Below, in pieces: positions 44,650 to 47,704 of a DNA stretch of 64,000 nucleotides. The position numbers and the translations under genes are program-made. Numbering within the stretch: the first letter of the stretch is position 1; each line of letters starts with the position of its first letter. The stretch comes from Methylobacter sp. (GTDB lineage: Bacteria > Pseudomonadota > Gammaproteobacteria > Methylococcales > Methylomonadaceae): positions 1 through 64,000 of the forward strand of contig JAUXXQ010000148.1 in assembly GCA_030684815.1 (NCBI GenBank), written 5' to 3'. The notes under the pieces are model-generated. The model was not told where the DNA came from and searched no databases. It was given only the letters and a program-made list of their open reading frames with translations.

Positions 44650-44823
44650 GGCTGGCACGGACAGTTTTGTCCCCTACAAAAATCTGCATTCCCCACAGAC
44701 CAGTGTTGCCATGCAGGCGCTAGGAACACCAAAGTAGGCACTTTAGAAAGGTAACGGTACGGCATACCGTTGTCAAAACACCCCCTGCTGAAGGGGGGAT
44801 GATTCAAACCAGTAAGGAAATTG
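44650..44823 (+). ncRNA. Structured element A: HEARO/omega-RNA-like, ending at an ATGA start codon
   Basis: The 3' part matches element B (46209-46414) in order and sequence: GAAAGGTAACGGTA-CGGCA-TACCGTTGTCAA (hairpin arms 44753-44759 and 44765-44771), a second hairpin CCCCCT ... AGGGGG (44781-44797), and a tail CAAACCAGTAAGGAAATTG directly before ATGA. The 5' part has a GGAC-AGTTTT-GTCC hairpin and differs from B. HEARO RNAs (omega RNAs of IscB elements) are known to lie just before ATGA or GTGA; no IscB ORF is present. The AAGGA in the tail serves as ribosome site for the lipoprotein. A cis-regulatory leader is the main alternative. Confidence 0.5.
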
Positions 44824-45420
44824 ATGAAAACAAGCACTCACATTTTGTTCAGCATGGCATTGCTGACACTGGCCGCCTGTTCAATTCAGGAAGTTAAGCA
44901 AGACACAAAAACCGCGCCAGCGACCGACACCTTGGCCGCAATAACCGGCGGGGACATGCAGGGCTCAGGCCAAAACCCGCCATTGACCCAAATCAAAGGC
45001 GGAAAAATACTCAACCTAGTCAGGATTATGGATGGCGGAGCCTGTAAAAATGATTTTCAAGGCACAAAAGGTGTATTTCTTGTCTACGCCGACCCCGATG
45101 ATATAGAACGCATTAAACGCGAACAAGGCACGCAAGTTTTTGCTGAATTTGAAAGTGAAATTCAACACCTCTCAACAGATGCGTTGCAAGACGCCATCAA
45201 TGCAACCAACTTGGCTGAAGATCCGTTTTCCTTGGGTGCCGATGAGGCACAAGAAAAACTGGGCAAGCAATTGTCCAACAATTTCCGCAACAGCATCGCC
45301 CAACGCATTAAGGACTTTCAACAAAAAACCGGTTTGACCATTGATGTCACACCCTTTGCACCTTCTTTGTTTTTTTACCAACAAGGCTGCGACGCAACGC
45401 AGCTGGAACCGGAAAACTGA
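44824..45420 (+). CDS. Putative lipoprotein of unknown function
   Basis: 198 residues from the ATG at 44824. Signal peptide II: STHILFSMALLTLAAC, with lipobox LTLAAC. The mature domain starts with a Lys/Asp-rich linker. It contains IKGGKILNLVRIMDGGACKN, GVFLVYADPDDIERIKREQG and a helical C-terminal half (LGKQLSNNFRNSIAQRIKDF). The family was not recognised. Its ribosome site is provided by the end of structured element A. Confidence 0.8.
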   Translation: MKTSTHILFSMALLTLAACSIQEVKQDTKTAPATDTLAAITGGDMQGSGQNPPLTQIKGGKILNLVRIMDGGACKNDFQGTKGVFLVYADPDDIERIKREQGTQVFAEFESEIQHLSTDALQDAINATNLAEDPFSLGADEAQEKLGKQLSNNFRNSIAQRIKDFQQKTGLTIDVTPFAPSLFFYQQGCDATQLEPEN

Positions 45421-45937: not shown

Positions 45938-46208
45938 AAAATTTCAGTAACTGTTAAAATGGAACACGGAGAACACAGACCAGACGGATTTGCACTGATT
46001 TTTTTAAAATAAGCCCTGCCTGAGCCATAAACACGACAATTTCGTGTTTTTCGTGTTTTTTAACAGCCACTGGGCGTAACTTCTCATTACCTGCGGGCAG
46101 CATCAAGGCGCTTAAACCAAAATGAGAAGTTACACGCTGGGCAGTTACACGTTTTAATAACAGGGATGCTGCGCGCACCCTTATATCTTGATTCTGACTG
46201 ACTGACAG
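45938..46208. other. Gap with tandem intergenic repeat fragments
   Basis: It contains an AACACGGAGAACACAGACCAGACGG segment (about 45962) like those at 54064 and 58486, a CACGACAATTTCGTGTTTTTCGTG stretch, and TAACTTCTCATTACCTGCGGGCA ... AAATGAGAAGTTAC (about 46077-46134), a palindromic repeat also seen near 43770 and 44250. No gene is visible. Confidence 0.55.
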
Positions 46209-46414
46209 GGATTGAATGACCGATGTTTCAATCCACACTCGACCTCATCTGCCAAATGACTTGCCTTACGACAACCCATCGACAGATGGAGGCCGGTGGA
46301 TTGCCTCGCCGTAAACGACGAGGTTACCTGAAAGGATAACGATGCTAAAGCATCGTTGTCAACGTTTAACAAATCTCCCTGAAGGGAGAGGTCTCAAACC
46401 AACAAGGAAATTTG
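46209..46414 (+). ncRNA. Structured element B: HEARO/omega-RNA-like, ending at an ATGA start codon
   Basis: About 206 bp with five nested or serial helices. CAATCCAC (46229-46236) pairs with GTGGATTG (46296-46303), enclosing CCTCATCTG (46243-46251) with CAGATGGAGG (46283-46292). Then come CCTCG/CGAGG (46304-46308, 46319-46323), AACGATGC/GCATCGTT (46338-46345, 46350-46357) and CTCCCT/AGGGAG (46375-46388). The tail CAAACCAACAAGGAAATTTG is followed at once by ATGA, the cobD start. A competing pair GGATTGAA/TTCAATCC (46209-46216, 46227-46234) exists at the 5' end. The architecture and ATGA junction fit HEARO-type RNAs of IscB mobile elements, but no IscB gene is present. A novel leader RNA is the alternative; no B12 box was found. 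Confidence 0.55.
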
Positions 46415-47704
46415 ATGAACCACGGCGGTAATATTTACCAGTTCGCGCAGCGCCTTGGCTGTCTGCCGGAACAGGTGCTGGACTTTTCAGCCAACATCAA
46501 TCCGTTGCAGGCTGTTGATTTAAGTTGTTTGCAGCAGGTTCAGCTAACGCCTTATGCTGACCCCGATTACGGCTTGTTAAAACAGGCCATCAAGCAACGT
46601 TATCCGTACCCGTCCGGCATCGACATTGAGCTTTTTAACGGTGCAAGCGCGGCTATTTTCGCGCTGTTGCGCAATTTGCAGCCGAAAGATTTGGTGTGTT
46701 ATGCGCCGCTGTATGGCGAATATGCGCACATTGCCGGGGAAATGGGCTGTAAAGTGCAATACATCAACCGCTTCAACCAGCTGATGGCGGACATTCCAGA
46801 ACGCAGCACCGTTATTTTTGTCAATCCGTCGACGCCGGACGGTCAGCTTTATGATCTGAACGAGCTGTTGGCAAAATGGCAGGCGGCAAATTGCACGATT
46901 ATTATTGATGAGTCATTTTTGGATTTTTCGACCGCCAGGGATGGTGGCCGCGACTGCTCCCGGCAGTCGTCGGCATTTCCTCCATCCATGGAGGTCAGAA
47001 GTGCCGCAATGGGTAGGGAACCCATGCGGCCGACTGCCAAGGATGACGGCCGCGACTGCTCCCGGCAGTCGTCGGCATTTCCTCCATCCATGGAGGTCAG
47101 AAGTGCCGCAATGGGTACGAAACCCATGCGGTGTGCCGATTCTGTGGCCGAACAGATAGCCGGTTACGACAAGCTGTATCTAATCAAATCATTAAGCAAG
47201 TTTTACGGTTGCGCCGGTATCCGCATCGGTTTTATTCTGGCGGCAACAGCGGCGATCAAGGAACTACGGCGTTTTGAACCGGCCTGGAAACTGTCCAGCT
47301 TGGACATGGCTTATATGCAACAAGCGCTAGCCAATACCGATTTCATAGCACAAACCCGCCAGCAGACCACCCATTTACGCGGCTTGCTGCATCAAGTCCT
47401 GTACGATTCAGGCTTGTTCGACAAAATTTATCCGGGACAAGCTAATTTTCTGCTGGCGCGCTTGGCAAATCAGGGGGATGGTTATCAGTTACAGGCGCAC
47501 TTGGAAACGGCACGAATTTTAATCCGCGTCTGCGATAATTTTGCAAGCTTGGATAAAAGCCACGTCCGTTTTGCGGTCAAGGATGAGCAGGCGATAACGC
47601 GGCTTGCCGGCAGCCTTCAAATAATTGTGGGAGCGGCCACCCGGCCGCGAACAGTACGCGATTGTTCGCGGCCGAGTGGCCGCTCCCACAACTTGTGCGT
47701 ATAA
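46415..47704 (+). CDS. cobD: Threonine-phosphate decarboxylase CobD with in-frame repeat insertions
   Basis: 429 residues from the ATG at 46415, well above the roughly 360 usual. PLP fold type I: HGGNIYQFAQRLG, DFSANINPLQ, FNGASAAIFALLR, IFVNPSTPDGQLYDL, IIIDESFLDF, and SLSKFYGCAGIRIGF with the PLP-binding Lys. Residues about 174-241 are a foreign 2 x 34-residue repeat (DCSRQSSAFPPSMEVRSAAM in each), inserted between the DF and the DKLYLIKSLSK strand. The last 26 or so residues are encoded by a GC-rich palindromic repeat that also supplies the C-terminus. It makes aminopropanol phosphate from threonine phosphate. All catalytic blocks remain, so it may be functional. It heads the cobD-cobQ-cbiB-cobU unit. 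Confidence 0.9.
   Translation: MNHGGNIYQFAQRLGCLPEQVLDFSANINPLQAVDLSCLQQVQLTPYADPDYGLLKQAIKQRYPYPSGIDIELFNGASAAIFALLRNLQPKDLVCYAPLYGEYAHIAGEMGCKVQYINRFNQLMADIPERSTVIFVNPSTPDGQLYDLNELLAKWQAANCTIIIDESFLDFSTARDGGRDCSRQSSAFPPSMEVRSAAMGREPMRPTAKDDGRDCSRQSSAFPPSMEVRSAAMGTKPMRCADSVAEQIAGYDKLYLIKSLSKFYGCAGIRIGFILAATAAIKELRRFEPAWKLSSLDMAYMQQALANTDFIAQTRQQTTHLRGLLHQVLYDSGLFDKIYPGQANFLLARLANQGDGYQLQAHLETARILIRVCDNFASLDKSHVRFAVKDEQAITRLAGSLQIIVGAATRPRTVRDCSRPSGRSHNLCV
46934..47137. repeat. 2 x 102-bp direct repeat inserted in frame in cobD
   Basis: Units 46934-47035 and 47036-47137 are almost identical. Each contains GGCCGCGACTGCTCCCGGCA, TCCATCCATGGAGGTCAGAA and GTGCCGCAATGGGTA. The length is a multiple of three and the insert is open in at least three frames, so it does not interrupt cobD. 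The organisation resembles Rickettsia palindromic elements, which also insert in frame within genes. Confidence 0.9.
47626..47690. repeat. 65-bp near-perfect palindrome forming the cobD 3' end
   Basis: TGTGGGAGCGGCCAC-CCGGCCGCGAACA pairs with TGTTCGCGGCCGA-GTGGCCGCTCCCACA around a short loop. It encodes the terminal VGAATRPRTVRDCSRPSGRS of CobD, and it is the GGGAGCGGC family of 19049. It would form a strong hairpin between cobD and cobQ, and might modulate cobQ expression. Confidence 0.9.

Follow-up and report, generated by a model that had tools for sequence, protein, structure and literature searches.

A gene-free, structured repeat of Methylobacter that inserts immediately before ATGA start codons and is probably a non-autonomous mobile element

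The DNA directly upstream of a cobalamin-cluster gene in a 64,000-nucleotide stretch of a Methylobacter genome (the window) is one copy of an interspersed repeat family that has inserted, many times over, in front of the start codons of unrelated genes. We regard this repeat as probably a non-autonomous mobile element without an Rfam entry, named the ‘start-codon element’ here, that targets ATGA and prefers ATGAA. The wider account that we favor, with comparable confidence, is of an IS200/IS605-HEARO-like element that is moved in trans and is kept through an end that can act as a ribosome site. The family seems to be undescribed in Rfam, and a search of the open literature found no described start-codon repeat of such kind. 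Table 1 lists the features of the window copy and its surroundings.

Table 1. Coordinates of the start-codon element, its parts and neighboring features in the window
Feature	Position	Strand	Evidence
Mobile element	46223..46414	+	Boundaries of 25 copies; empty sites of sister copies; covariance model R1, 216 bits
Long hairpin H1 (helices 1 and 2)	46229..46303	+	Covariation
H1 outer helix	46229-46235 / 46297-46303	+	Covariation
H1 inner helix	about 46239-46255 / 46279-46296	+	Covariation
Hairpin H2, CCTCG..CGAGG (helix 3)	46304..46323	+	Five two-sided pairs
Hairpin H3, AACGATGC-TAAA-GCATCGTT (helix 4)	46338..46357	+	Five two-sided pairs
3′-proximal hairpin H4, TCTCCC-TGAA-GGGAGA (helix 5)	46374..46389	+	Covariation
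Conserved unpaired tail, Shine-Dalgarno-like AAGGA at 46404-46408	46390..46414	+	Copy alignment
Target/junction ATGAA, the downstream start codon	46415..46419	+	Junction shared by the genome's 25 near-complete copies, without exception
Class I/II aminotransferase (CobC/CobD-type), head of cobalamin cluster	46415..47704	+	Pfam PF00155; same ATGAA start in the orthologues of relatives
Second, degenerate copy, abutting the ATGAA that opens a 198-aa lipoprotein-like ORF	44664..44823	+	Covariance model R1, 38.4 bits, E 4.2e-7

Comparing positions 46180-46420 of the window with all 4.29 Mb (235 contigs) of the genome returned 41 matches, most of them spanning query positions 43-47 to 240-241, and 25 of these roughly 41 matches are near-complete copies. 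Similarity in the 25-copy alignment opens at GTTTCAATCC, in many copies with AT before it, and closes at GGAAATTTG, with unrelated flanks beyond. These repeat boundaries place the conserved part of the element at 46225-46414 on the forward strand; the leading AT (46223-46224), counted in Table 1, could be either the first two bases of the element or a 2-nt copy of the target’s AT. The preliminary description had drawn the interval as 46209-46414. Its 3′ end stands, but its 5′ start shifts to 46225 (46223 with the AT), the 14 bases at 46209-46222 being unique flank outside the element. Copies are 175-195 nt long and hold no gene. The first 12 bases of the element (46225-46236, GTTTCAATCCAC) presumably correspond to the reverse-complemented end of a common CRISPR repeat; the match is probably a coincidence, and no CRISPR-repeat link through it was found in the element loci inspected. 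Four copies in other Methylobacter genomes (L083, L078, L062 and L116) contain a nested IS/MITE with ends TGTGTAGATAGC...GCTATCTACACA in the fourth hairpin.

One end of the element is fixed and the other is less so. The 3′ junction reads GGAAATTTG/ATGA, exact in the window copy as had been described, and ATGAA follows directly in 25 of 25 near-complete copies in this genome. The 5′ junction is usually AT/GTTTCAATCC: 50 of 66 ends (76%) read AT/GTTTC, and the other 16 differ, some with a deletion of the target. ATG is found on both sides of most copies. On the opposite strand ATGA(A) reads TTCAT, a fixed short target on one side of the element. The degenerate second copy in the window, with its ATGAA junction, occupies 44664-44828.

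Insertion is directly visible at sister copies. Both flanks of each copy were joined and matched against the genus, and the close relative G005 carries uninterrupted sites with whole-junction identities of 98% at feoB, 93% at prlC, and 91% each at fabD, a cytochrome c gene and hypD. At base level the empty site reads flank/ATGAA and the occupied site reads flank/ATGTTTC...AAATTTG/ATGAA, with the junction GCATACTGAC/ATGAATAACC as an example; sites L004, L019, L021 and L027 agree with this pattern. The uninterrupted sites of relatives identify the element as a mobile insertion and not an ancestral leader, and in this respect the earlier view of a mobile inserted element lacking a nuclease gene is borne out. 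Comparison of orthologous loci was less complete for the copy in the window: none of the relatives compared offers a clean empty site, because the upstream region here is rearranged with respect to theirs. Those relatives lack the element at this gene and start the gene at the same ATGAA, which in some overlaps or abuts the stop codon of the upstream gene. A riboswitch-like cis-regulatory leader, ancestral to the cobalamin operon, would account for the conserved structure and for the position before a cobalamin gene. The same sequence, however, precedes feoB, prlC, fabD, hypD, a cheA-like gene and other unrelated genes, empty sites exist, orthologues in relatives have not kept it, and no Rfam family, riboswitches included, matches the element at threshold. 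We consider an ancestral leader so improbable that we reject it; regulation gained after insertion is possible. The prlC start codon is occupied in two species by copies of different subfamilies (L047/L127 in G002:C160 and L014 in G000:C107), either through an old shared insertion or through a repeated hit.

Placement at gene starts exceeds what the target motif would give. The ATGs that follow the 25 near-complete copies start ORFs of 78 aa or longer in 21 cases, compared with 44 of 164 background ATGAA sites in the window (27%; binomial P ~4e-9). Copies that do not sit at starts are more numerous in certain other genomes; part of the excess may therefore reflect selective removal of harmful insertions. 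The gene behind the window copy had been called cobD; it is confirmed as an aminotransferase gene that leads a cobalamin cluster, its predicted product fits a CobC/CobD-type protein, and the exact name is plausible. At 46929-47131 the same gene contains a tandem duplication that keeps the reading frame, with two copies of about 102 bp that are 94% identical.

The conserved tail offers an explanation of how such insertions may be tolerated. The tail CAAACCAACAAGGAAATTTG runs directly into ATGA, exactly as described for the window copy (46395-46418), and is conserved across copies. Within it, in AACAAGGAAATTTG, AAGGA stands 6 nt 5′ of the ATG, the position in which this motif acts as a Shine-Dalgarno sequence. 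The tail AAGGAAATTTG would in this way supply the Shine-Dalgarno of the downstream gene; of the earlier proposal that the element’s end serves as a ribosome site, the placement is observed and the function is predicted from it. Insertion at a start codon would delete the native ribosome site or displace it by about 190 nt, and since the tail carries AAGGA at this spacing, the insertion would substitute a site of its own, from which translation would presumably start. An insertion that brings its own ribosome site would be tolerated, and would afterwards be difficult to shed. The native Shine-Dalgarno region has been lost at two sites, L017 and L026 (TAAGAGGTAA and AGAGGT). Relatives read TATTATAAGAGGTAAACGATGAAA and TTTTAGAGGTTTTTATGAAA at these sites, and the occupied sites run from TATTA or TTTTA straight to GTTTC, where the deletion breaks.

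An old insertion before aroK is probably common to several genera. A decayed copy precedes ATGAC at aroK in genera g13, g33, g34 and g5, and a different leader is present in g1, g4, g32 and g15. The simplest reading is a single old insertion common to the four genera; recurrent insertion could also give the pattern. Preservation in the aroK copy is best over the final 15-20 bases, ACCAGCAAGGTATTTTG, which would be expected of a tail that had turned into a ribosome site. Three g34 species (L215, L221 and L223) also have a related sequence, reversed and flanked by an rpsA-like and an ihfB-like gene, away from any start codon.

Of 61 relatives, 11 carry the element by DNA search, and all 11 belong to Methylobacter; it is multicopy in several genomes of that genus. 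With a covariance model, detection widens to 50 of 201 genomes, spread over 9 of the 29 genera in the host’s family. A second covariance model found two genomes from other gammaproteobacterial families with at least 7 strong copies apiece, the best scoring 193 and 171 bits, and almost none elsewhere. Such a patchy, high-copy distribution is as expected of a mobile element. Searches of phages, plasmids and viral contigs returned no copy, except for one contig of the viral set with a Methylobacter-type copy.

The five helices proposed earlier, a long two-part hairpin followed by three hairpins, are real beyond chance. The single-sequence fold has z = -4.0, with none of 200 shuffles equally stable. 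In a diverse alignment of 23 sequences, 82% of cells pair and 23 of 43 pairs show two-sided changes, with a covariation score of 0.248 compared with 0.159 when shuffled and at most 0.105 when slid; in a 51-copy alignment 90% of cells pair and 13 pairs are two-sided. We also tried to choose the RNA strand from G-U versus A-C mismatches by column. Counts of 17 versus 20 and 11 versus 20 favor neither strand clearly, so the structure under selection may be either a DNA hairpin or an RNA, and the lack of preference counts against our best explanation. A structural switch at the 5′ end, also suggested in the preliminary description, requires the strand GGATTGAA. This strand lies in the 46209-46222 flank and is absent from every other copy among the 25, so the switch would belong to this locus and not to the element.

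The central proposal of that description, a HEARO/omega RNA turned operon leader, survives as a mobile insertion at a gene start and is not supported as to HEARO identity. RF02033 gave no match on the window at the gathering score, none to E = 10 on 46000-46500, and none to E = 1 on nine other copies, while the same searches detected two true HEAROs elsewhere in the genome at 107.5 and 91.8 bits. HEARO membership is rejected on this basis: the element resembles the class in target choice and is not a member by the available test. The genome-wide search for iscB found a single trace, a 52-aa RRXRR remnant at a true HEARO, and iscB-type domains, both short, occur in 2 of 23 Methylobacter genomes. 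With the element multicopy in several of these genomes, we reject IscB as the mobilizer, and the idea that an IscB elsewhere could still act on the element is weakened. One true HEARO, with a broken iscB (L002:1501-2048, G000:C43), has itself landed at the very start of a cheW-like gene, directly ahead of its ATGAA. In the same transposon superfamily, an IsrB is reported to read an NTGA target motif (PMC9581776), with which the ATGA beside the element could be compatible. A divergent or degenerate HEARO/omega RNA, its 5′ flank serving as guide and still used by IscB or IsrB, would fit this motif, the structured, gene-free form and the end at ATGA, which a HEARO of the same genome shares at an ATGAA start codon. 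We consider it improbable, given the silent RF02033 model, the different helix order and sequence, and the absence of iscB from 21 of 23 Methylobacter genomes.

The start-codon element inserts immediately 5′ of ATGA, and as it carries no gene it would be moved in trans by some enzyme. The bottom-strand target TTCAT and the hairpins near both ends suggest single-strand transposition of the IS200/IS605/HEARO type, for which the most likely enzyme would be a Y1 transposase with a TTCAT target. Y1 transposase genes are present in all 23 Methylobacter genomes. Among the Y1 loci of the genus, none was found beside an element copy, and no transposase with ends matching the element was found; the one IS200-type TnpA element read closely has other hairpins and ends. 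We also looked for a longer, autonomous version. Where a 3′ end stands alone in this genome, about 1.5-3.4 kb of sequence upstream of it showed no matching 5′ end, and truncated copies elsewhere contained only nested IS/MITE insertions or ordinary genes. The variable 5′ junction and the target deletions of some copies run counter to precise IS200/IS605 transposition. A different chemistry, either ATGA-primed copying (target-primed reverse transcription) or a recombinase that crosses over at ATG, would leave one fixed and one variable end, and is possible though unlikely in our estimate. It would explain the fixed 3′ end with its variable 5′ partner, the deletions that break at GTTTC, and the ATG on both sides of most copies. 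However, no reverse transcriptase or recombinase is linked to copies in the loci inspected, the same AT forms 76% of 5′ ends, and the deletions could be later events. It is also possible, though unlikely, that the family represents a new class of mobile element whose machinery recognizes start codons or their transcripts, either by new chemistry or with the element serving an unlinked nuclease as guide RNA, and that it swaps ribosome-binding sites at many genes simultaneously.

Insertions beside start codons are usually harmful. Through its own ribosome-binding site, this family appears to turn such a position into a refuge, a ratchet from mobile repeat to fixed gene leader. With dozens of copies in some genomes and several gammaproteobacterial families reached, it offers many natural before-and-after pairs for measuring how a mobile, RNA-like leader affects expression.

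Among known systems, HEARO RNA elements (RF02033; the omega RNA of IscB, IS200/IS605 superfamily) are likewise structured, joined to ATGA or GTGA, often free of a nuclease and interspersed; the start-codon element differs in its helices, its shorter length, its tail positioned like a ribosome site, and in having neither a covariance match nor an iscB partner in the genus. The NTGA motif of IsrB/IscB OMEGA systems (PMC9581776) would accept ATGA, whereas the element has no protein partner and any guide function is putative. Non-autonomous IS200/IS605 derivatives (PATE-like) and MITEs share its short, gene-free, multicopy form, the hairpins near both ends and the one-sided fixed target. From these it is set apart by a parent transposase not found, terminal inverted repeats not seen, a variable 5′ junction, and its strong placement at start codons.
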